A stretch of 49,780 bases of DNA from Deltaproteobacteria bacterium (lineage in GTDB: Bacteria; UBA10199; SPLOWO2-01-44-7), in contig JAHFSU010000014.1 of NCBI GenBank assembly GCA_023265595.1, positions 1 through 49,780 on the forward strand, given 5' to 3'. A program made the translations under genes and the position numbers. The notes under the pieces are model-generated. The model saw nothing but the letters and a program-made list of their open reading frames with translations, ran no database searches and had not been told where the DNA came from. Of the stretch, positions 9,167 to 42,101 are shown piece by piece. How positions within the stretch are numbered: the first letter of the stretch is position 1; each line of letters starts with the position of its first letter.

Positions 9167-10286
9167 GACGAAATATCTCATTATTTTCTCCCTCTTTTTC
9201 CTTTCTCCCCTTTTTTCGGCATCGGCTGCGGAAACCGGCCCTGAAAAAGTTGTGAAACAGGCACATGCCAAAGAATTGGAGGGGGATTATGAAAGGGCCC
9301 AATCCCTTTACGAAAGTATTATCAAAAATTATCCCGATTATGAACCGGCCCTTGTCGGTCTGGGGCAGGTGAAATATTGGCAGGGGAATTATCAGGGAGC
9401 GATCGACACGTATGCCAAAATATTGAAGATCGATCCCGATCATGTGGGGGCCTTGGTCGGTACCGGCAAGGCCTATCTCGCTTTGGGAAAACAGAGGAAG
9501 GCGCAGGAATATTTCAATCGTGCCGAAAAGCTGGAACCGAACGAAGAAGAGGTGGCGGCGGTCCGGCCGCAATTGGAGCATAAAACCAAAATGGAGATCA
9601 ACGCCGGCTATCTGACGCAAGATATGAATTACGCGTCGGAGGCTCAAGGAGAATATCAGGAGATCCGGGTTACAAAAGAGAAGGGATATGGGTTGGGGTT
9701 GACCGCAGTCTATCTTAATAAATTCAGTCAGACCGGATTGGATACGCGTGTTTACGGCAATTATTATTTTTTTGAGGGGACGCGTCTCGATTTGGGGCTC
9801 GATTTTTCGCCGAAGACCAATCTGTTTCCTGAAGTGGGGGCCGATTTTGGATTGGCGCAAACGGTTTGGAAAATAACGGGAGAGGTTCATTACAATTATC
9901 AAAATTACGCCCAAGCTACGACACAAACGGTGCGGCCGGCCCTTTTTTTTGAACCGTTTGCATTTTTGAAAATCGGCGGCGGATATGAATACCAAAATTT
10001 GCGTTTTGGAAATGTGAGAAGAAATTTGAATGGAGGTTTTGGAGAGGTGAGAGTCACGCCGGTCGAGTGGTTTTCCGTTTATGGCTTTTATTCCCACATC
10101 CAGCGCGGCTTTGAAGCGGGGCGGAGACCCTCTCCCTACATCAATTATACCGCCAATGTCGGCGGCGGCGGTGTCGTATTCGATCTGATGGGAGGGTATC
10201 GTCTTCGGTTTGATGGCAGTTACGAGAAGAGAAATATCAACGAATATCAGGCTACAATTAATATTTCAGCCGGCTATTTATTTTAA
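9159..10286 (+). CDS. TPR-containing outer-membrane beta-barrel protein (YaiO-like)
   Basis: 375 residues from the ATG that overlaps the tnaA stop. A signal peptide (about 1-23, ending in SASA) is followed by roughly three TPR units (about 29-130; A-L-G-Y/Q spacing seen in GDYERAQSLYESI, GNYQGAIDTYAKI and GKQRKAQEYFNRA). The rest is alternating aromatic/hydrophobic beta strands ending in GYLF with a terminal Phe, as in outer-membrane proteins. The TPR-plus-barrel layout resembles the YaiO family, often linked to exopolysaccharide or cell-surface functions. Overlap with tnaA suggests coupled translation. The functional link to indole production is unclear; it might serve transport, but nothing in the sequence shows that. 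Confidence 0.82.
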   Translation: MCKTKYLIIFSLFFLSPLFSASAAETGPEKVVKQAHAKELEGDYERAQSLYESIIKNYPDYEPALVGLGQVKYWQGNYQGAIDTYAKILKIDPDHVGALVGTGKAYLALGKQRKAQEYFNRAEKLEPNEEEVAAVRPQLEHKTKMEINAGYLTQDMNYASEAQGEYQEIRVTKEKGYGLGLTAVYLNKFSQTGLDTRVYGNYYFFEGTRLDLGLDFSPKTNLFPEVGADFGLAQTVWKITGEVHYNYQNYAQATTQTVRPALFFEPFAFLKIGGGYEYQNLRFGNVRRNLNGGFGEVRVTPVEWFSVYGFYSHIQRGFEAGRRPSPYINYTANVGGGGVVFDLMGGYRLRFDGSYEKRNINEYQATINISAGYLF

Positions 10287-31748: not shown

Positions 31749-31779
31749 GGAGCATATGTTACCTGTTAACATATGCTCC
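31749..31779. terminator. hairpin after prpD
   Basis: Perfect 13-bp stem (GGAGCATATGTTA with its complement) around a 5-nt loop, with CCAC/GTGG able to extend it past a bulge. It starts 18 nt after the prpD stop. No T-run follows, so it may be a Rho-aided terminator, mRNA-end protector or repeat. Confidence 0.55.
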
Positions 31780-31838
31780 GTGGTTTGACGCAACTTTTTT
31801 TGCATCCTTCCGACAACCATTATAGAGGTAGAGAAAAC

Positions 31839-32567
31839 ATGGCCACAGAGGCGATAAAAATGGCAGGAATGTCGAGTGTTGATGGAACGAGTGAAGCGGT
31901 GCCGGTGTATGAAGGGGCCGACAAAAAAACAGAATCTCCTGCGGATGTATTTATCCCTCCGCTCCTCCCCCTTGCAGGGAGGGTCAACGATCCTGATCCA
32001 AGGAGAGATGTGTCACCACGATGTCAAGTTGTGTCAACCAATATAAGACTCAAGATACTTTCTATTCCTATCGCTACTCTTGGTGCCTTACTTTCTTATG
32101 AATCTTTTCTATATCATCCTCAGAGTCCTGAGGAGGAGGTGAATAGAAAGATATGGTTTTGTTATGGGCTACTCTTTACCGGAATGGTTCCTATACTCAC
32201 CATGGGTTTTAATTATCTTATGCTTCGGCAGGATCCCGCCTTTGCTGATGTAACCAATCTAAATTTGAAGCAGCAAATCTTGTATTATCACGATAACTGT
32301 CTCGGGGGCGGCGATGGTCCTAAAAAAAGAAGAGAGGTGTCAAAAGCATTTAAAGCAGAACCGGTCCTCGTTCGAAACCCTGTGCGTAATTTTGCGGAAT
32401 CTTCCTCAGAGGCGGCCACTTCAACACTCACAATAGGATCTGCCACCACCACTTTGACTTTGGGAACCTTGGTTTATCTCGCCCTCCCCGAACTCCGTTT
32501 CGCCCCAGTTGCCAACTCTTTTGTCATCACCAACATACAACCCGCCAACACCCCGGAAATGTTTTGA
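31839..32567 (+). CDS. hypothetical membrane protein
   Basis: 242 residues from ATG 31839 (GAGGTAGAG upstream). An earlier in-frame ATG at 31773 lies within the hairpin after prpD and is not favoured. Three hydrophobic segments are seen: about 69-88 (LSIPIATLGALLSYESFL), 107-128 (FCYGLLFTGMVPILTMGFNYL) and 208-225 (TTTLTLGTLVYLALPEL). The N-terminal 60 residues are polar and disordered-looking. No family recognised. It resembles in style the other polar/TM unknowns of the window (2384-3160, 39542-40003). The convergent neighbour ends 17 nt away. Confidence 0.5.
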   Translation: MATEAIKMAGMSSVDGTSEAVPVYEGADKKTESPADVFIPPLLPLAGRVNDPDPRRDVSPRCQVVSTNIRLKILSIPIATLGALLSYESFLYHPQSPEEEVNRKIWFCYGLLFTGMVPILTMGFNYLMLRQDPAFADVTNLNLKQQILYYHDNCLGGGDGPKKRREVSKAFKAEPVLVRNPVRNFAESSSEAATSTLTIGSATTTLTLGTLVYLALPELRFAPVANSFVITNIQPANTPEMF

Positions 32568-32583
32568 CAAAATTTGCGCCCGT

Positions 32584-33837
32584 TCAATAAATTCCCTCTG
32601 CATCCCCATTGATTCGTACCTCGGTGCGTAATTCGCGTGATCGGTCAAGGGCCGACTGGAATGATGGCATCACTGTGAGATAGCAGCCCAAATAATCGAA
32701 CTGACGCTTCGTACTAACAATCTTTGCCCCCGGCGCCATAAAAGTCGTGTGGAACTTCACTTCGGGAGCCGATGGAAAATCGACCGACTCAAATCTATCC
32801 ATCACGGGTGGCAAAAAATATTGGAGGCAGGAAAAGGCCTCCTGTTTCAGATGAGGTACACCTCCAACACCCAGCGCGAAGTCCAACAACATCTCCTCAA
32901 TTCGAAGACCGTAAGCGAAATTAATGGACTGCAAAACGTCTGCGCCGACGAATCGGGGGTTCAGGTCAATAATCTCTACTTCGCCATTTTGACTAACAAT
33001 GACTTCGGTGTGTGTGGGGCCTTCAAGAATTCCAAGTTGTTCATGCGCCCGTTTTACGAGGTCAATAATTTTGTCTTCCAGCGGATGTGGATACGGAAAG
33101 CAGGAACCCATTTCAACTACGGGGTCTTTTGAGTAGAGAATCCGAGAGAGTAATCCAAGTGGACGAAACACACCGCTTCGTGAGAACGCCTCGACCGAAA
33201 GCAGTTCACCATCGAAAGCTTCTTCAAGATGGTATTCATTTTGGGAACGAAGATAATTTTTAACATACGAAGGATCGGATGCAAGACCGTTACGCCATTC
33301 CTCTCGAGCCAAACGAAGGTCGTCCAGCCCGTTGCATTTTTTGACGTAGGCACTAAAAAAACCGCGTACCGGCTTGAAATAGGTAGCGCTTGGCATCGGC
33401 CATGTCTGCCAAGTATCGGCGACCCTTCCCGGTATTGTCTGAAGACGGCTTAGTCCGAGCTCGCGGAGCTTACTCCGTAGCCAATGTTTATCGAGGATGA
33501 GATCAAGAGTCTCAGGATCCGATGTCGGCAGACCATATTTTTTTCTGAGACGTGCTGTGGCTACGGCACAATGGTCCATGCCTGAGTAAATTCCCATAAT
33601 CGGATTCTGAGAGTTCAAATCATCAACCTCTTTTTCGATTGTGGCAATGTCCTGCCAAGATTCGATTTTCAGAGTTACGTCGATCAAGGGAATAGCAGTT
33701 TTATAGGGTGCCGGGGTTTGAAGGAGCAGTGATTCGTCGGAGGTGAGCGCGACAACATGGAACCCACGGCTCTTGGCAGCACGGACAACCTCAAGAATAG
33801 TCCCTTTGGGTTCGAGAAAAACTAGGGTGTCGCTCAT
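32584..33837 (-). CDS. ATP-grasp superfamily ligase
   Basis: 417 residues from ATG 33837, which overlaps the MFS gene stop (ATGA). ATP-grasp landmarks: Lys155 (YFKPVRGFFS), acidic Glu205-Glu206 (YHLEEAFDG), Glu278 (HTEVIV) and the magnesium-binding DLNPR (Asp291, Asn293, Arg295). Such enzymes join a carboxylate to an amine or thiol through an acyl phosphate. The N-terminal FLEPKG/VVALTSDESLL part resembles the pre-ATP-grasp domain of amino-acid and peptide ligases (BacD/carnosine-synthase type). Context with a diiron oxidase and an exporter points to a small peptide- or amide-like product. The substrate cannot be told from sequence. Confidence 0.82.
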   Translation of the reverse strand: MSDTLVFLEPKGTILEVVRAAKSRGFHVVALTSDESLLLQTPAPYKTAIPLIDVTLKIESWQDIATIEKEVDDLNSQNPIMGIYSGMDHCAVATARLRKKYGLPTSDPETLDLILDKHWLRSKLRELGLSRLQTIPGRVADTWQTWPMPSATYFKPVRGFFSAYVKKCNGLDDLRLAREEWRNGLASDPSYVKNYLRSQNEYHLEEAFDGELLSVEAFSRSGVFRPLGLLSRILYSKDPVVEMGSCFPYPHPLEDKIIDLVKRAHEQLGILEGPTHTEVIVSQNGEVEIIDLNPRFVGADVLQSINFAYGLRIEEMLLDFALGVGGVPHLKQEAFSCLQYFLPPVMDRFESVDFPSAPEVKFHTTFMAPGAKIVSTKRQFDYLGCYLTVMPSFQSALDRSRELRTEVRINGDAEGIY

Positions 33838-35069
33838 GGTTGCGCCCTTTCCGAGAGGGAAATCATTTCCGAGCGCTTTCCGATAAACGGGGAGACTCCT
33901 GCCATGAGCACTCCAATCAGAATGATGATCAGAGTGGCAAGAGAGACGCCAAGATATTGGACAAGAGCTGAATAGGTGAGTGTTAAGGTTGCCATTAGAA
34001 AGGCCGCACAAGCAGAAAGAGTAAACTGATATCTTGCCGCTACAGCTTTCGGACTCGTCCTAAAAAAATCCGAGTTGTGATGCAACCAAATCCACTCATA
34101 ACCGAGATTCACGACAAAAAAACCGATCAAACTAATTGATAAAGCACTCGCAGTTACAGAAAACAAAAGCGCCATGCTCGCAATCGCGGCAATTCCAATT
34201 GTACGCAGCGGACGAGTCGGCTGTTTTTCAGCCAGGGCAGTGTTCCTTAACCAGTTGATAAGAAAACCGCCCGTAATGCCTGCGGATGCTGCCAGCTGGA
34301 ATCCGCCCACACCGCCGAGCCCTAGCTTAAAAACCTGAATCGGGAGAAATGAAACGAGAACCGAATAGGTTCCTTGAAACATCGCTTGCGAGAGACAAAC
34401 TATCAGGAAAGAGGTACGCATCACCGGCATTGCGAAAATGGTCGAAAGGGTTTGACGGAGCGACGGCTCAGGAATTTTTGTAGAGGGAGATGATTCGGTT
34501 TGCAGCGCCGGAAGTTGTTGGAGAGTCATCCATACGGCAACACTCAAAAAATAGCTTGCCATATCCAGATAAACGACCGTCCAAATCGATGACCGACTCA
34601 GAACGATTCCGGCCAAGAGTCCCGAGATGGCCGTCGAAAGAAAAAAGCTGAGATAGAAAAGTTTAATTCGGTTGGCCTGAAGCTCATGAGGCGTGATCAC
34701 CTTGAGCCACTTGGTTGCGGCGGCTCTGCCAATGAACATGAGGAGTGAGCGAAAACCGAGGATCATACAGAGCAGAACCAGCGGCAGATGGAGAGCGATG
34801 CTAATCCCTGAAAGCAGGGTTGCGACAACTGAAATTAACTCGTTTCTTGCGATGAACCAACGCGAAATATTTTCATCCACCCAATGCCCGAGGCGCGCAC
34901 TCACAAGAATGGAGGGTAGAAACGAAACGACGAAGATCAGTGCCGATTGAACCGGTGATCCGCTGGTATAAAGAACAAACGCGGCTATTGCCAGTGTCAG
35001 GAAATGGCTTCCCGTTTGAGAAATAAACGAGGCGGCAAGAAGTTTTGTGAATTCTTTGCTGCTATCCAC
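33834..35069 (-). CDS. MFS transporter, probable exporter
   Basis: 411 residues with about 12 hydrophobic helices and an early cytoplasmic loop (SARLGHWVDENISRWFIA) fitting the MFS loop 2-3 motif in weak form. GTG start with GAGGA upstream, overlapping the HDO gene by 8 nt; its stop overlaps the ATP-grasp start by 4 nt. Closest in style to MFS_3/drug exporter (enterobactin exporter EntS-like) proteins. The middle position in a three-gene unit suggests it exports the product of the two enzymes or confers self-resistance. Confidence 0.88.
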   Translation of the reverse strand: MDSSKEFTKLLAASFISQTGSHFLTLAIAAFVLYTSGSPVQSALIFVVSFLPSILVSARLGHWVDENISRWFIARNELISVVATLLSGISIALHLPLVLLCMILGFRSLLMFIGRAAATKWLKVITPHELQANRIKLFYLSFFLSTAISGLLAGIVLSRSSIWTVVYLDMASYFLSVAVWMTLQQLPALQTESSPSTKIPEPSLRQTLSTIFAMPVMRTSFLIVCLSQAMFQGTYSVLVSFLPIQVFKLGLGGVGGFQLAASAGITGGFLINWLRNTALAEKQPTRPLRTIGIAAIASMALLFSVTASALSISLIGFFVVNLGYEWIWLHHNSDFFRTSPKAVAARYQFTLSACAAFLMATLTLTYSALVQYLGVSLATLIIILIGVLMAGVSPFIGKRSEMISLSERAQP

Positions 35070-35967
35070 TCTTTTTGTTCCTCACCATTTCGTGTGAGAT
35101 CACGCTGGTAGCAGTCGTCCAGAACTGTAGCCAAAACTCTAAGCCATGGTCGAAGCCTTTGATAAACAGATGCTTGTCTTTTTCAGTCGTGCAGAATCGC
35201 AGGAAATTAGAAACGGTCAGGCGAACGTGCTCAATCTCGATCTGCCGATGAAGCTTGAAAAATTTATGTTCGTTTAACTTTTTAGCCACCTCTTCGGAAT
35301 AGCACAAGGACGCCAGAATAGTCTCGATATTTTCGACTGCGGGGATTTCAAGGCCCAGAAGAAGGCCGAGAACCTCTGCATCGCTTTGCGAGTCGGAAAG
35401 AGCTGTTCGAAGTAGGGTCAAGGCTTCTGCAGGTTCTTTCGTCGATCGAATCCGTTCCCGCGCTTCGCTAGTAACACCCGCGATCTGTGCTGCGTTCCAG
35501 AACATATTAGGGTGAATCTCACTGGCATCGCGCATTCCCAGCTCTTCAAACGCTGTCTGAATAACATAATGGCGCTTCTCATTACTGGAAACCATTGCTG
35601 CTGCTTGGCAAAGAAACCATGGCATGAAGCCGGAGAAACGGTGCCAGAGGACGCCGACAATCGTTGCTTTTTCCCGTGATGGTTCTGCGTGCAAGGAGGT
35701 AAACAGATCAAAGATTTTCTTCTCTGTTGCTCTCTGTTCAAACTGATGGGTCCACGCCATCACTTCGGGATGTTCCAAAGTATAGGTTGCCTCTTTGGTT
35801 CCGCTGTAGCCTGCTTGTTTTGCCTCGTTACTTTCTACAACTTGATCCAGATCCTTCACCAATATGACCGCACTCATTGCAACACCCTGTTCTCCAGCAA
35901 TTCCCGCTGTATCCTCTCCCCAATTTTGAATGGGTTCAACGTCCTGTACTCCTTGTGTAGATTCCAT
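35062..35967 (-). CDS. haem-oxygenase-like diiron oxidase (HDO) family enzyme
   Basis: 301 residues from ATG 35967, which has AAAGGAG at good distance. The six metal ligands of HDO enzymes (SznF, UndA, BesC type) can be placed with family spacing: Glu142 and His152 ten residues later (FEELGMRDASEIHP), Glu207 55 residues on (LLGLEIP), then His240-x3-Glu244-x2-His247 (LHRQIEIEH; family usually has Asp in the middle). HDOs use O2 and a labile diiron site for N-oxygenation, C-C cleavage or desaturation of amino-acid-like substrates. First gene of the HDO-MFS-ATP-grasp unit. Upstream, 36033-36180 has no clear promoter pair. The specific reaction is unknown. Confidence 0.8.
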   Translation of the reverse strand: MESTQGVQDVEPIQNWGEDTAGIAGEQGVAMSAVILVKDLDQVVESNEAKQAGYSGTKEATYTLEHPEVMAWTHQFEQRATEKKIFDLFTSLHAEPSREKATIVGVLWHRFSGFMPWFLCQAAAMVSSNEKRHYVIQTAFEELGMRDASEIHPNMFWNAAQIAGVTSEARERIRSTKEPAEALTLLRTALSDSQSDAEVLGLLLGLEIPAVENIETILASLCYSEEVAKKLNEHKFFKLHRQIEIEHVRLTVSNFLRFCTTEKDKHLFIKGFDHGLEFWLQFWTTATSVISHEMVRNKKSG

Positions 35968-36179
35968 AAATTTTTCTCCTTTTGTTGTTATTCCCCCATC
36001 GCTTTTGCAATAAATATGCCAAGGCATTCTCAAATAAAATACAGGAGGAGATCGAAAAATGTTTGATTGTGAGACAAGTTGTTGTGGCTATCGGACACAT
36101 AAAAAATCGGACGGATTGGTGGGGATGAGAATTTTTCTCAAAATGATTGATTCTTGACATTCTCTAATTCCTCAATAGC

Positions 36180-36926
36180 ATGCGCCGCATGAATTTTGAG
36201 GCCTTCATCAAAAACAGACCCTTCGTGATTGCGGGGCCGTGCGCGGTGGAATCGCGCGAACAGATTTTGACGACGGCCCGCGCCGTGAAAAATGCGGGGG
36301 CGCAGGCGCTTCGCGGCGGGGCTTTCAAGCCGCGCACCTCTCCCCATTCTTTTCAGGGTTTGGGAGAAGAGGGGCTCAAACTTTTGGCGCAGGCCCGCGC
36401 CGAAACGGGACTGCCGATTGTCACGGAGGTTTTGGATACGCGCGATGTTTTGCTTGTCGCCGAATATGCCGACATTATTCAGATCGGTTCCCGCAGTACG
36501 CAGAATTTTCCTCTCTTGAAAGAAGTTGCCAAGACAAACCGCCCCGTTATTTTAAAACGCGGGATGGCGATGACCGTCGAGGAATGGCTCTCCGCCGCTG
36601 ATTATATTTTGGAATCAGGCCACGACAAAATTATTTTGTGCGAACGTGGTATCCGCACTTTTGAGACAGCCACAAGACACACTCTTGATCTCAATGTTGT
36701 TCCGCTGCTTAAAGAAAAAACAAAATTCTCTGTGATTGTCGATCCCTCGCATGGCACCGGCCGCGCATCATTAGTGGCTCCCATGGCAAAGGCCGCTTTG
36801 GCCTGCGGCGCCGATGGCCTTTTGATCGAAGTTCACCCCGATCCTCATCAGGCGTTGAGCGATGGCCCGCAATCGCTCGATTTTTCAGCCTTCGAAAAAT
36901 TGATGGGGGAAATTCAAAACATATGA
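36180..36926 (+). CDS. aroF: 3-deoxy-7-phosphoheptulonate (DAHP) synthase, type I-beta
   Basis: First step of the shikimate pathway: condenses PEP and erythrose 4-phosphate. 248 residues, the bare catalytic barrel without the N-terminal ferredoxin-like or chorismate mutase regulatory domain. Motifs: [48 protein letters not shown] and EVHPDP. KPRTSP(Y/H)SFQG separates DAHP synthase from the related KDO8P synthase. Being barrel-only, it is predicted to be insensitive to aromatic amino acids. An ATG at 36189 is an alternative start. It overlaps the next gene by 4 nt. Confidence 0.92.
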
Positions 36927-37456
36927 AGTGTTTTATTTCTCTTATCCTTTTTCTAAGCCTCTCCATGTCGGCATACTCTGCCACATTCAAAACCTACGAG
37001 AATAAAAAGTTGAGATTGCGTTTTGATTACCCGGCGGAGAGTAAAATGGCCTTGTTGGGAAAAAGCCAAAAACAAGGCGAGGGGGAATTGTTGTTCCTTT
37101 CAAAACAAGACAATCCATTTGTATCCAGCATTACCATCACGGTTAAACCCAAAACAGAGTTCAAAGATGTCTGGCATTTTTCCGAAGCCTATTTGAGGAA
37201 TCTCACCGCCAGCATGGAGCCCGAACGGCAAAAACTCCGTGTCACTAAAAACAAGCTCAACCTGCATGGCAAAGAGGCGCGCGAAATAGCGCTCTCCCAT
37301 CTGGCAGAAGGGGAACTCCACAAACAGACCCTTCTTTTTGAAGAGGGAAAAAATCAGTTTGTTATTGTGGACTATTCGCGGGTTGCATTTTCCGGCGAAC
37401 AAGACCTCCCCATCTATGAAAAAATAAAGGAAAGCCTGGACGTGGAACAAAATTGA
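36923..37456 (+). CDS. hypothetical secreted protein
   Basis: 177 residues. The signal peptide (hydrophobic [12 protein letters not shown], cleavage near AYSA, about 20) predicts export. The mature protein begins with a [13 protein letters not shown] strand reminiscent of PsbP/DUF1795-like folds, followed by alternating strands and a final helix ([10 protein letters not shown]). No catalytic residues are evident. The ATG overlaps the DAHP synthase stop (36923-36926), so the two are co-translated, an odd pairing of a cytosolic and an exported protein. It ends 35 nt before the truncated gap gene. Confidence 0.6.
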
Positions 37457-37491
37457 TTTGAACGCCACCCAGAGCTAGAAACCCTCCCACT

Positions 37492-37569
37492 ATGACAATA
37501 CGCATTGGAATCAACGGTTTTGGGCGCATCGGCCGCATTGTTTTGGAAAATAGTGTTACAAAGGGCTGA
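37492..37569 (+). pseudogene. gap: 5' fragment of glyceraldehyde-3-phosphate dehydrogenase gene, cut off by the 179-bp repeat
   Basis: ATG 37492 opens MTIRIGINGFGRIGRIVLE, the unmistakable NAD-binding start of GAPDH. From 37551 the sequence is identical to the start of the repeat copy at 39369, and the frame ends at TGA 37567-37569 after 25 codons. Native gap therefore covers 37492-37550 only. The remainder is nowhere in the window, including after the island, so it was deleted or moved, or this is a partial duplicate of an intact gene elsewhere. Confidence 0.78.
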
Positions 37570-37729
37570 ACTCACGAAACCTCGGCTGTTTTTTGACCTA
37601 TTTTGAAGACAGTGTGTCTAACCTGTAGACAGTCAAGGTGAGACCCGTAGCAAAATATCAAAACATTTCAACGCAGTCATCGCCATTTTTATGGTACGCG
37701 AATTGCATTTGATGCATGGCAATATGGTA
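37551..37729. repeat. 179-bp direct repeat, copy 1
   Basis: Aligns base for base without gaps to 39369-39547. About 14 differences fall in the first 160 bases, 12 of them transitions; the last 20 bases diverge more. It contains a small hairpin (TGTCTA, 5 nt, TAGACA). On the minus strand a reading frame from ATG 37708 matches the 34-codon frame of copy 2 but is stopped by TGA at 37660-37658. It replaces the rest of gap and lies just before the gene at 37774. Confidence 0.87.
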
Positions 37730-37773
37730 TAAGAAAGATCATGCGATCGAAATTGCTTGAGAAAGGAAATTTT

Positions 37774-38727
37774 ATGAGTCACACAAATTCAGTTTCACTT
37801 GCAAGGGCCTACTGGGCCATTCGAGAAGTTTATGGAAAAGACGCGCTTGAAAAAACGCGAGGTTTTTTTAAACAATATGGTTGTGAAAGTAATGGCAGGA
37901 TTGAATTGTCGCAGGATACTCCCGGCGACGGAATGGTTTCATTATTATACCAAATAAATTTGCAGGGGCGTCCCATTCAAGGCGTATTGCGGTTTGCAGA
38001 GGATGGAAACGTTTATGATGGCATTGTCAGATCACATCAAACACTTTTGCCCGCGGCCGCTCGCTTGCTGATCGACGAAGCTTTCGGCCCGGACGAATTG
38101 AAAACTAAACCGACCGAAAAAGAGCTTCCGTTTTTTCAGGGAGCCAAAGAAGTCTACGAATGTCATTATCAGGGGAGCGGTACCGCGGCTTTCGAAGCGG
38201 CGTGCCTTTTGCCTGTGAGACAAAAGTTTGCGGAAATGCACAAAGCAGAAGAGGAGGTGGTGAGAGATAAAAATATTCAAAAGACAACAAACCTTGTCAC
38301 AATGGCATATCAAATGTTGGCGGTTGCAAAGAAAAAGGAGAGTATTTGGTTTTGGAATCGCTGGGACTCAAAAGATTTCCAAGATACCGTCATGAGTTAT
38401 TCCGCACAGATCAATACGATTCCCAGCGATACAAAAAAGAGATCCGAAGAGAGACGTCAAAAGGCTGAGGAGATGATCAAAAAATCGTTGGACACTTATA
38501 GTGGTGCTAGGGCGTGTGAAGAGTTGGGTCAGTGTGAGCATGAAGATATCGCCTCCCATTGTCCCCACGACGGGGGAGGGATGGATTTTTATTTAAAGTC
38601 AGAGGATGGCAAAAGAATAGTTCGTAGGGAAGAATATGGTTGTTCGTCGCCTAGCCATGATAGTAGTCCGCACGGGGGCGAGGGCCACTATAATGAGGGA
38701 GGACATGAGCATTGCAGTCATCGCTAG
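37774..38727 (+). CDS. hypothetical protein with His/Cys-rich C-terminus
   Basis: 317 residues from ATG 37774, with AAAGGAAATTTT upstream; an earlier ATG at 37741 lacks a ribosome site. No signal peptide or membrane segment. The first 110 residues look like a small alpha/beta domain; 130-240 is helical and charged (KKRSEERRQKAEEMIKK). The last 60 residues hold a Cys/His cluster (ACEELGQCEHEDIASHCPHD) and a tail with many His (SHDSSPHGGEGHY, GGHEHCSHR), which could bind Zn, Ni or Cu. No family recognised. The leader and the first codons (ATGAGTC) resemble those of the next gene, as if duplicated. Confidence 0.62.
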   Translation: MSHTNSVSLARAYWAIREVYGKDALEKTRGFFKQYGCESNGRIELSQDTPGDGMVSLLYQINLQGRPIQGVLRFAEDGNVYDGIVRSHQTLLPAAARLLIDEAFGPDELKTKPTEKELPFFQGAKEVYECHYQGSGTAAFEAACLLPVRQKFAEMHKAEEEVVRDKNIQKTTNLVTMAYQMLAVAKKKESIWFWNRWDSKDFQDTVMSYSAQINTIPSDTKKRSEERRQKAEEMIKKSLDTYSGARACEELGQCEHEDIASHCPHDGGGMDFYLKSEDGKRIVRREEYGCSSPSHDSSPHGGEGHYNEGGHEHCSHR

Positions 38728-38753
38728 AGCATTTATTAACAAAGGAGAAATTT

Positions 38754-39371
38754 ATGAGTCGTATCGATTCTATTGTCCCTGCACCAAAACCAGAGTGCCA
38801 AGAGCAGAGCGAAGACATTTGCCTGTCAGATTATCCGCAAGAATTTCATGCCTGCGCTCAAAGGGTAGAGGCACACAACAAAGAGTGTCAGCAAGAGCGT
38901 GCTGCAAAAACATTGGCTTGTGAAGAAGCTACCATGGACGAGGATACTTATTGTCATCAATTGCCTCGTGGCATCGTTGGCGCTGGAAGAGATCAAATTG
39001 ATGCGCGCCAAGAGTTTCGCATAGAATGTCAAAAGGCCAAAGCAACTAGAGAACAATTTTGTACAGAAGCCGAGAATCCAATCGAAAAAAATAAAGGAGG
39101 GACTATGGCAAATATAGATCCAAAAACAGTTTCCGGAAGCTGTTTTTCTGACGGAAAATATCTTTATTCCGCGACAGTCGCGGGACAAACCACCGTGATC
39201 GATCCGCAAGCAAAAACAAAAGCGGAAGAATGTGCCGGAACCGGAACTCTCGGCGATACAGTAGAGGGAGTGTCGACAAGCTATACCGGACCGGGCGGCA
39301 CTCTTATCACAGAATTTTTCAATGTTGTGAGTGGTAACAAGTATAAGTTGGAGGGTGGTTGTAGAAAGTAG
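38754..39371 (+). CDS. hypothetical protein with cysteines in strict 11-residue spacing
   Basis: 205 residues from ATG 38754 (AAAGGAGAAATTT upstream). No signal peptide. It has 11 Cys. Cys23, 34, 45, 56 and 67 are each exactly 11 residues apart (C-x10-C four times), and Cys92-Cys103 repeat the spacing; Cys15 precedes. The segments between are polar and helix-forming, and an 11-residue period puts the Cys on one face of a helix. From residue 118 the protein changes to a beta-rich domain (ANIDPKTVSGSCFSDGKYLY onward, Cys130, 160, 203). A strong ribosome site and in-frame ATG at 39105 mark that border, so an 88-residue shorter product is likely too. Unknown family. Confidence 0.66.
   Translation: MSRIDSIVPAPKPECQEQSEDICLSDYPQEFHACAQRVEAHNKECQQERAAKTLACEEATMDEDTYCHQLPRGIVGAGRDQIDARQEFRIECQKAKATREQFCTEAENPIEKNKGGTMANIDPKTVSGSCFSDGKYLYSATVAGQTTVIDPQAKTKAEECAGTGTLGDTVEGVSTSYTGPGGTLITEFFNVVSGNKYKLEGGCRK
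39093..39107 (+). promoter_or_regulatory. internal ribosome site and start codon inside the Cys-ladder gene
   Basis: AAAGGAGG (39093-39100), 4 nt, ATG (39105-39107), in frame with the surrounding gene at Met118. It is a better ribosome site than that of the gene itself. It predicts an 88-residue product equal to the C-terminal domain, or marks two formerly separate genes fused by loss of a stop. Confidence 0.55.
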
Positions 39372-39547
39372 TGTTACAAAGGGCTGAACTCACGAAGCCT
39401 CGGCTGTTTTTTGACCCATTTTTAAGACAATGTGTCTAACTTGCAGACAGTCAGGGTGAAACCCGCAGCAAAATATCGAAACATTTCAATGCAGTCCTCG
39501 CCGTTTTTATGGTATGCGAATTGCATTCACTACACAGCAATATGGCA
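39369..39547. repeat. 179-bp direct repeat, copy 2
   Basis: Counterpart of 37551-37729. Begins at the stop codon of the Cys-ladder gene and ends in the first codons of the next gene. The hairpin is kept with one changed pair. On the minus strand it holds an intact 34-codon frame (39526 to 39422) starting MQFAYHKNG; differences from copy 1 in that frame are mostly silent or conservative, apart from the copy 1 stop. Confidence 0.87.
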
Positions 39548-40003
39548 GACCGATTCACGATTCAAAAAAATTACAATTTTACTCCAAGGCTTTCGGCAGA
39601 GGCGCCACAGAGGATGACCCCCGTCACCATGCCCATTGCAGGGATAGGGAAGTACGATGATGCGACTTTTCAACTAGAACGTTATAAAGATTTTACGAGG
39701 CGCCCCGGAGAGGGAAAAGGTTGGGCTGATATTTATTTGCGCGGCAAAGAGAGAGAGCAGGAATTTCGAATAAGGCAGGCAGAAGATGATGCACGGAATG
39801 CTGCGCTGAAAAATAAGGGGAGCGGTTGCGGCGGCGGGCCCAAGAACGGCCCTGGGACTTCAGGGGATGTGACCACTTCGGTGGTGGCGACAGTTTTGTT
39901 GGGGTTGGCCTTTTTTGTCTCGCGTTTTACACCAGCCGGACTTGCATCAAGTTTTATCCCCTTTGCATCGGTGATAAACAATCAACAAAACGAAATTTTA
40001 TAA
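39542..40003 (+). CDS. hypothetical protein with one C-terminal membrane segment
   Basis: 153 residues from ATG 39542, which lies in the end of repeat copy 2 and has no ribosome site; ATG 39614 is an alternative. The N-terminal 90 residues are polar and charged (RGKEREQEFRIRQAEDDARNAA). A Gly/Pro-rich linker (GSGCGGGPKNGPGTSG) leads to one hydrophobic segment (TSVVATVLLGLAFFVS) and a moderately hydrophobic end. It may be a tail-anchored membrane protein. Unrecognised. 9 nt before the next small gene. Confidence 0.5.
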   Translation: MADRFTIQKNYNFTPRLSAEAPQRMTPVTMPIAGIGKYDDATFQLERYKDFTRRPGEGKGWADIYLRGKEREQEFRIRQAEDDARNAALKNKGSGCGGGPKNGPGTSGDVTTSVVATVLLGLAFFVSRFTPAGLASSFIPFASVINNQQNEIL

Positions 40004-40012
40004 GGAGGCATT

Positions 40013-40207
40013 ATGGGAGATTCAAATGTAGAGAAGGATTGCAGACCGATCTTTGTAAGGCATACAGAGCCCCGTTATATCCACGGGACTGACATCGAAA
40101 TACAAGGGACCATCACCCGCACACCGCCGGGATGCCCTTCCGAGGCAAGTATGCTTTGGCAAGCATTTTTAGATTTATTGGCAGGCAGACTAAACACGAA
40201 ACAATAA
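40013..40207 (+). CDS. hypothetical small protein
   Basis: 64 residues with a near-perfect ribosome site (AAGGAGG, 6 nt, ATG). Polar N-terminal two thirds (IFVRHTEPRYIHGTDIEIQGTITRTPPG) with strand-like pattern, then a short amphipathic helix (ASMLWQAFLDLLAGRL). No family recognised. Last gene of the repeat-associated island; convergent with the methyltransferase/reductase gene 40 nt away. Confidence 0.6.
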   Translation: MGDSNVEKDCRPIFVRHTEPRYIHGTDIEIQGTITRTPPGCPSEASMLWQAFLDLLAGRLNTKQ

Positions 40208-40247
40208 CAATAATTTTAATTAAAATAATTCACGAAGAAACGGCACC

Positions 40248-42101
40248 TCACGCAATCACCTTGATCAACTCCACCACCGCCTCGTATTTGCCGAAGGGGG
40301 GGAAGATGTAGACCCCTTTGACGGCGGGCATGCTTTTTGCATCTTTGAGCGCCTCTTGCGCAACGGCCAATCCGATATCTCTTTGAGCCTCTTTCGTTGC
40401 CGCCTGCCCCAGTTTTTCCATAACCGAAATAGGGATCTGCATTCCCGGAACTTCGTTGTGCAAAAATTCGGCATTTTTTAAACTAGCCAATGGCAAAACG
40501 CCGACGAAGAAGGGGATACTCAAAAAAAGTTTGCACTTGGCTAAAAATGTCTCCAAAAGTCTGGAGTCGTACACAGGCTGTGAAAAAATAAATTCGGCAC
40601 CCGCAGCGATTTTTTTGCGGAGTCGTTCCACTTCCAAATCCATGTCGACAGCGCCCGGATTGCAGCCACAGCCAATCACCAGAGAAGTCTGCTCGCCGAT
40701 AGGCCGGTTGGCAAAATCCAAACCGTGATTCAAATTATTGACAAAATGGATAAGACCAATCGCATCGACATCAAAGACCGCGGTGGCATCGGGATATTCT
40801 CCCATCTTTGGCGGATCGCCGGTGATGACCAGAATATTTTTAAGGTCAATTGCATTGGCGCCGATCAGATCCATCTGCATCCCCAAAAGATTTCGGTCGC
40901 GGCAGCAATAATGAATGACTGTTTCCATGCCGATCTGTTGTCGGATCAAAACTGACATCGCCATGGGACTCATGCGGGCCATCGCTCTGGGGCCATCGGC
41001 AATGTTGATGACATCGACGCCGTGCGCCTTCAAAAATTTGGCCCCTTCGATCGCCTTGCTCGCATCCAAACCTTTTGGCGGATCGATTTCAACACTGATC
41101 GCGAATTTTTTTCCTAAAAGGGCGCCGAATGCACTCCTTTTGTCGAGCGGGACCGGCGTTAATTTTGGGGTCTCCTCTTTTTTTAATTCTTCTGCCCGAA
41201 TCGTCTCGATTTTTTTTGTCGGCTTCAGCGTATGAAGATATTTTTTCATCTCCTTGATCATCGACGGTGTGGTGCCGCAACAGCCGCCAACAAGCGAGGC
41301 GCCGGCTTGTGCCAAGCGGCGCGCGTATTCGGCCATGTATTCGGGAGTGGCCAAATACAAAAGACGGTTTTGTTTTGTTTGGGGAAGTCCGGCATTCGGG
41401 AAGGCCGAAAGAGGCTTGGTTGCAATCGGCTCCATCAATTTGATCGCCTCCAAAACGCCGACCGGTCCGTTGCAGCAATTGACGCCAATGACATCAGCCC
41501 CCCATTCGCACAGGGTCTTGCAGGCATCCATCGGTTGGATTCCTTTAAATCCCTCTTCCCCCTCGTATTTTAAAGTGACTTGCGTGATGACCGGATGGCT
41601 TTTGGAAACCGAACGGACCGACTCATACGCCAATTTCAATTCGTCGAGATTATAAAATGTCTCCAAAATAATGAGATCGACTCCCCCTTCGATCAACGCT
41701 TGAATCTGTTCTTTAAAACAATTTTTAATTTCGTCATTGCTTAATGTTGTGGACGATTTTGCTGCCCAAGATAAAGGCCCGACAGCGCCGGCAACATAGG
41801 CCTGACCTTTGGCCGCATCTTTGGCAATTTTGGCGCCGGCCCGGTTGATCTCTTTGACTTTGTCTTCAAAACCGTACGCGGCGAGGGCCAGACGGTTTGC
41901 GGTAAATGTGTTCGTCTCCAAAAGCTGTGCGCCGGCGTTTAGATATTCAGTGTGGATGTCGCGGATGAGTGTTGGGTTCGACAGATTTAGTTCATCATAA
42001 TTGCGATTGATGAAAATGCCGTGTGCATAGAGCTCTGTCCCCATCGCCCCATCGCCCAAAATGCCGTCTTCAATGAGTGCTTGCAAAAATGGCTTCATCA
42101 A
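40248..42101 (-). CDS. bifunctional homocysteine S-methyltransferase / methylenetetrahydrofolate reductase
   Basis: 617 residues in two enzymes. The N-terminal domain (about 1-290) is the Zn-dependent homocysteine methyltransferase: DGAMGTEL start, Cys209 (GVNCCNGP) and Cys274-Cys275 (GGCCGTTP) as zinc ligands. A linker of about 30 residues rich in Lys, Glu, Pro and Thr leads to a MetF-like TIM barrel (330-617; VEIDPP with Glu338, HYCCRDRN, ITGDPP, FSQPVYD). It would reduce methylene-THF and pass the methyl group on for methionine synthesis. Compared with MetH, the cobalamin and activation domains are absent and must be supplied separately if needed. Overlaps the MBL gene by 4 nt. Confidence 0.95.
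   Translation of the reverse strand: MMKPFLQALIEDGILGDGAMGTELYAHGIFINRNYDELNLSNPTLIRDIHTEYLNAGAQLLETNTFTANRLALAAYGFEDKVKEINRAGAKIAKDAAKGQAYVAGAVGPLSWAAKSSTTLSNDEIKNCFKEQIQALIEGGVDLIILETFYNLDELKLAYESVRSVSKSHPVITQVTLKYEGEEGFKGIQPMDACKTLCEWGADVIGVNCCNGPVGVLEAIKLMEPIATKPLSAFPNAGLPQTKQNRLLYLATPEYMAEYARRLAQAGASLVGGCCGTTPSMIKEMKKYLHTLKPTKKIETIRAEELKKEETPKLTPVPLDKRSAFGALLGKKFAISVEIDPPKGLDASKAIEGAKFLKAHGVDVINIADGPRAMARMSPMAMSVLIRQQIGMETVIHYCCRDRNLLGMQMDLIGANAIDLKNILVITGDPPKMGEYPDATAVFDVDAIGLIHFVNNLNHGLDFANRPIGEQTSLVIGCGCNPGAVDMDLEVERLRKKIAAGAEFIFSQPVYDSRLLETFLAKCKLFLSIPFFVGVLPLASLKNAEFLHNEVPGMQIPISVMEKLGQAATKEAQRDIGLAVAQEALKDAKSMPAVKGVYIFPPFGKYEAVVELIKVIA

Follow-up and report, generated by a model that had tools for sequence, protein, structure and literature searches.

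Two copies of a predicted sigma-54 enhancer-promoter unit upstream of orphan gene pairs at a gene-order junction in a deltaproteobacterial genome

Described sigma-54 systems and accessory-gene hotspots

PilR-type activators recognize TGTC elements located upstream of the sigma-54 promoter. The locus described here likewise presents TGTC half-sites upstream of a predicted sigma-54 promoter, but they are arranged as a dyad with fixed spacing and no pilin gene lies downstream. A second reference is the sigma-54 regulome of Desulfovibrio vulgaris, which comprises -24/-12 promoters with upstream activator sites (PMC4641369). The locus shares with it -24/-12 elements whose GG lies ten bases from the GC, an upstream enhancer-binding-protein dyad, mostly within ~100 bp, and a genome encoding both RpoN and NtrC-type activators (bEBPs). 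It differs in that the dyad, TGTCT-N7-AGACA, is matched to no named activator, and in that the predicted targets are orphan accessory genes served by a locally duplicated unit. Sigma-54 control has also been described for natural-product genes (PMC7910581), and the locus is similar in having an operon for a redox enzyme, a transporter and an ATP-grasp protein behind the same kind of promoter, and dissimilar in that no family search marks any of its four island genes as biosynthetic. Finally, the locus resembles accessory-gene hotspots between conserved genes, since two species of one genus carry different cargo at one place, with toxin-antitoxin-like genes in one of the two. Unlike such hotspots, the place appears to have been created by a rearrangement and no integrase was seen.

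The window, that is, the whole stretch of 49,780 nucleotides that was analysed, belongs to a draft genome of 1.87 Mb in 70 contigs (G000). It was compared with a sister genome from another species of the same genus (G001) and with relatives outside the genus (G002-G005). Gene names in neighbourhood comparisons were read by eye from translations, except where a family search is cited.

The island genes, the gene order and the gap stub

The island is flanked by two conserved neighbours, the gene for DAHP synthase (DAHPS; 36180..36926, + strand) on the left and a gene encoding a homocysteine S-methyltransferase/methylenetetrahydrofolate reductase fusion (metF; 40248..42101, - strand) on the right. 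It contains four genes on the + strand: ORF1 (37774..38727, 317 aa), the Cys-rich ORF2 (38754..39371, 205 aa), ORF3 (39614..40003, 129 aa from the ATG at 39614, with a hydrophobic C-terminal segment) and ORF4 (40013..40207, 64 aa). When each ORF was scored in six frames by codon usage, its own frame was the best in all four cases, weakly so for ORF3 and ORF4. The frame of ORF3 is open from 39542, but the 24 codons before 39614 are not gene-like, making this ATG the likelier start. Within ORF2, an in-frame strong start (AAAGGAGGGACTATG, 39090-39107, with the start at 39105) would give an 88-aa protein; either translation may begin internally here, or two small genes may have fused.

The earlier note had described four unrecognised genes in one direction, with neither transposase nor integrase, and our searches agree on both counts: ORF1-ORF4 yielded no significant match in Pfam, PHROGs or NCBIfam and no transposase or integrase domain. 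Homologues of ORF3 and ORF4 were searched for and not found, and no protein similarity was detected between ORF1/ORF2 and ORF3/ORF4. ORF1 belongs to an orphan family with homologues in G003 (four paralogues), G005, G024 and G039; the family is present in 5 of the 46 genomes of the class that were searched and is not in G001, a patchy distribution of the kind expected of accessory genes. The ORF1 sequence profile had no match in the PDB, and its AF2 model (pLDDT 77), in which an alpha+beta part at the N terminus is accompanied by a long helix and a tail with Cys, matched no PDB entry or viral fold with E<0.001; the AF2 model of ORF2 has a pLDDT of 51. ORF1 was detected neither by pattern nor by tblastn in GTDB contigs, phages or IMG/VR, and ORF3 was detected in neither plasmids nor IMG/VR, which led us to discard a prophage or plasmid fragment as the identity of the island.

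Four relatives, G002, G003, G004 and G005, place gap immediately after DAHPS or one gene further on, with pgk behind it, an order that speaks against the earlier note's proposal of an insertion into gap. In these four, an intact gap adjoins the flank and the repeat is absent nearby, which is the arrangement that the earlier note had named as refuting its reading. In two of them, G004 and G005, metF converges with a gene for a HAD-family phosphatase-like protein. The relatives keep DAHPS-gap-pgk and HAD-metF apart, and both of these old junctions lie on one contig in G004, ~32 kb from each other. In G000 and G001, HAD adjoins gap, and only variable DNA is found between DAHPS and metF. The junctions are reciprocal and fit one inversion, and we infer that a single event of this kind in the genus ancestor made both. 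The comparison of gene orders thereby defines the site of the island as an accessory-gene hotspot at the rearrangement junction between DAHPS and metF. In G001, the cargo of this interval consists of an orphan gene and two gene pairs, one RelE-like and the other PIN-like, and the interval has neither a gap stub nor a lipoprotein gene. The toxin-antitoxin-like genes of that genome are bordered by a 35-bp repeat of the metF 3' end (L080:7945-7978, 9446-9480), which suggests an insertion at the metF end.

The 5' stub of gap (GAPDH) lies at 37492..37545 on the + strand. Starting from the ATG at 37492, MTIRIGINGFGRIGRIVL aligns with positions 1-20 of Gp_dh_N in a partial Pfam match (E 1.1e-5), and homology persists to about codon 18, ending at ~37545, shortly before the repeat begins at 37550. 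The truncated start and the missing remainder are hence as first noticed, and an intact gap sits on contig C53 of the same genome (G000:C53:36296-36598; open frame of 337 aa). The comparison does not support the idea that the arrival of the island truncated gap, since the rearrangement common to both genomes of the genus accounts for the missing remainder; the stub is best read as marking a change in gene order and not a gene interrupted by the island.

An in-place relic and an arrival together with the island, through recombination with a relative keeping the DAHPS-gap order, have about even chances as the origin of the stub. The stub retains the family states R4 and L18, whereas the gap genes of G000 and G001 carry K4 and M18, and its best match is the gap gene of G005 (49 of 54 bases identical, the differences being synonymous), compared with 44 of 54 for its own intact gap. 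These features count for import together with neighbouring DNA. Import would also be in line with the drop in identity between the G000 and G001 DAHPS genes from ~0.83 to 0.75 at the 3' end, a weak sign. Against it, 54 bases are few, no donor was seen, and the in-place relic is the simpler account because the reciprocal junctions fall exactly at the stub position. The origin of the stub is a question independent of the promoter reading.

The repeat and its predicted enhancer-promoter

The repeat search returned the segments 37540-37727 and 39358-39545, with 88% identity. Between 37550..37727 (copy 1) and 39368..39545 (copy 2), both on the + strand, 157 of 178 positions are identical, and 18 of the 21 differences are transitions. 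These results corroborate the reported 179-bp repeat with a second copy between the second and third genes, and a search of the whole 1.87-Mb genome, as the earlier note had proposed, found only these two copies. Copy 2 runs from the ORF2 stop codon to a point just short of ORF3, and a weak match (9 of 12 bases) extends left of the repeat into the 3' end of ORF2. The island cannot be called repeat-bounded, since a copy precedes each gene pair and the right end has none. The predicted RNA fold of the repeat was no more stable than those of shuffles, an Rfam search of the window gave no matches and a terminator scan detected no terminator-like site on the + strand.

Each copy contains the dyad TGTCT-N7-AGACA followed, after exactly 60 bp, by TGGYAYGCGAATTGCA, which has the form of a -24/-12 element, and is thus predicted to be a sigma-54 enhancer-promoter module, copy 1 for the first gene pair (operon 1) and copy 2 for the second (operon 2). 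In copy 1, half-sites have the arrangement AGACA-N3-TGTCT-N7-AGACA (37607..37631, +). They include a perfect dyad of 17 bp, TGTCTAACCTGTAGACA (37615-37631, +), which is predicted to be the activator site (UAS), and the predicted -24/-12 element is TGGTACGCGAATTGCA (37692..37707, +). In copy 2, the UAS dyad TGTCTAACTTGCAGACA (39433..39449, +) lies 60 bp before the predicted -24/-12 element TGGTATGCGAATTGCA (39510..39525, +). None of the differences falls in a dyad arm or in the GG/GC of the -24/-12 element; conservation is highest in the 50 bp upstream of the UAS, with 2 differences, which is outside what the promoter model explains. A third predicted enhancer-promoter of the same type, TGTCTCACAATCAAACA followed after 38 bp by TGGCATATTTATTGCA, maps to 36006..36076 on the - strand, with its -24/-12 element at 36006-36021. 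All three elements present TGG...TTGC, again with ten bases from GG to GC, and dyads at loop distance, here 60 or 38 bp upstream of -24, occur above controls.

The third site precedes an operon encoding an iron-containing redox enzyme (Haem_oxygenas_2), an MFS transporter and an ATP-grasp protein (32584..35967, - strand), which is absent between PrpD and DAHPS in G001, G003, G004 and G005. All three sites in the window thus appear to serve accessory DNA. Together with an orphan membrane-like protein, the operon forms a second block absent from relatives (31773-36150).

In the genome as a whole, the -24/-12 pattern TGGYAYRNNNNTTGCW was matched 32 times, against one match for the reversed pattern used as control. 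Many matches lie 15-80 bp before a start codon, those of SctV, ComEA-like and lipoprotein-like genes included, and a few fall inside genes or far from them. Four of the 30 such promoters that were read have TGTCTN9ACA no more than 100 bp upstream; shuffles average 0.04 and the flanking background predicts 0.08. The composite pattern TGTCTN9ACA-N30-60-TGGYRYN5TTGC, scanned in 6 genomes, yielded only 7 sites in total and none in any control: four in G000 (spacers of 60, 60, 60 and 38 bp), one in G001 (38 bp) and two in G003 (37 and 35 bp). The two spacer classes, 60 versus 35-38 bp, differ by about two helical turns. The genome also encodes one RpoN (one Sigma54_DBD) and seven strong bEBP matches (Sigma54_activat); bEBP genes are located on contigs C1 (three), C29 (one), C37 (two) and C48 (an FHA-type one).

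One of the sites in G003, which belongs to another genus, consists of TGTCTCAAAACAGGACA, 37 bp and TGGCATGTCCTTTGCA on contig C11, upstream of an ORF1 homologue with 27% identity, pointing to a pairing of promoter type and gene family that recurs across genera. The strict scan gave no such promoter upstream of the other ORF1 homologues examined. Chance may account for the composite site that G003 has upstream of a gyrA/parC gene. Those on G001:C21 and on the window genome's C35 precede other Cys-rich proteins, and the C35 pair has no Pfam match. A second promoter copy at C35:17153 was not counted as evidence, since an assembly gap of 10 N lies directly beside it; these ten N (L074:5126-5135) denote a scaffold join, at which a false repeat is possible. 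An FHA-type bEBP (G000:C48, L202 5933-7204) was considered as the activator and set aside, the evidence for it being of neighbourhood: its ortholog in G003 (62%) lies ~1.7 kb from the ORF1 homologue.

Predicted sigma-54 promoters were also seen 16-63 bp before five IS200-like Y1 transposase (RAYT-type) genes (L033, L034, L038, L042 and L055; contigs C19, C21, C25, C31 and C55 of G000), as well as before an ORF6N gene and a ComEA-like gene; a literature search for RAYT with sigma54 returned no paper on RAYT genes behind sigma-54 promoters. The type III secretion gene SctV (L089:9358-11517; TIGR01399 above cut-off) has one 42 bp upstream, and FHA/YscD-like genes lie near it. Type III secretion of the island products was considered, but nothing ties SctV to the island.

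Origin of the repeat and proposed regulation

The reading that we favour, with a probability of about 0.8, is that the island represents accessory cargo at the DAHPS-metF junction, and the repeat a single sigma-54 enhancer-promoter unit present twice. The absence of protein similarity between the gene pairs, set against 88% identity in the non-coding unit, suggests that copying took in the promoter unit and none of the genes. It is unlikely that the whole promoter-gene-gene module was duplicated in tandem and its genes then diverged beyond recognition or were replaced; the identical layout of the two halves and the weak match into the 3' end of ORF2 would fit, but that same lack of similarity and the unequal gene lengths argue against it. 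The earlier note had left a choice between cassette-like gain and duplication of a 5' module, and the data favour the latter.

If it were the terminus of a mobile element or gene cassette, or a site at which one recombines (a MITE, an integron-like attC or an integrase att), with the pairs gained singly as cassettes, the repeat would account for a position that varies between genomes, with different cargo in G001, and would have a parallel in the 35-bp metF-end repeat of that genome. This is nevertheless very unlikely, since the repeat occurs only upstream of the gene pairs and contains a complete predicted enhancer-promoter. Its restriction to two genome copies and the lack of a transposase in the island run counter to an insertion sequence, transposon or MITE, and its absence after ORF4, with no integrase domain in the island, to an integron cassette array. 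An assembly artefact at 37550 is hardly credible: the draft state of the genome and the doubtful duplicate at the C35 scaffold gap call for caution, but 36800-41200 contains no N, the DAHPS-metF neighbourhood is also present in G001, the reciprocal HAD-gap junction is found in both genomes and the copies differ at 21 sites.

Under the enhancer-promoter reading, which builds on the observed elements, their recurrence and spacing, the presence of RpoN and bEBPs and the changed gene order, an NtrC-type activator would bind the TGTCT-N7-AGACA dyad ~95 bp before the transcription start, loop to RpoN-RNA polymerase poised at -24/-12 and use ATP to open the promoter. This would switch on both gene pairs jointly with the Haem_oxygenas_2/MFS/ATP-grasp operon, which lies 1.5 kb further left. 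If copying proceeded in this direction, duplication of the unit would have put ORF3-ORF4 under the same control as ORF1-ORF2. The proposed function is that an activator signal brings the two orphan operons and a redox/transport operon to joint expression, with a presumed benefit from co-regulation.

The component parts are of known kinds, and the combination of an orphan regulon with local promoter copying is of moderate interest. A more tentative idea, which we consider possible without deeming it probable, is that the compact unit acts as a copyable plug-in, duplicated beside newly gained orphan genes and bringing these into a single regulon of proteins specific to the lineage, which might be surface, secreted or antagonistic factors; such a regulon would grow by promoter copying and not only by in-place evolution. 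Otherwise unreadable orphan genes of uncultured Deltaproteobacteria gain a predicted shared switch from this analysis, and its motif may be used for listing further regulon members and for finding the activator. The locus would also offer a case in which the recruitment of new genes to a regulon, through promoter duplication at a hotspot, can be tested.
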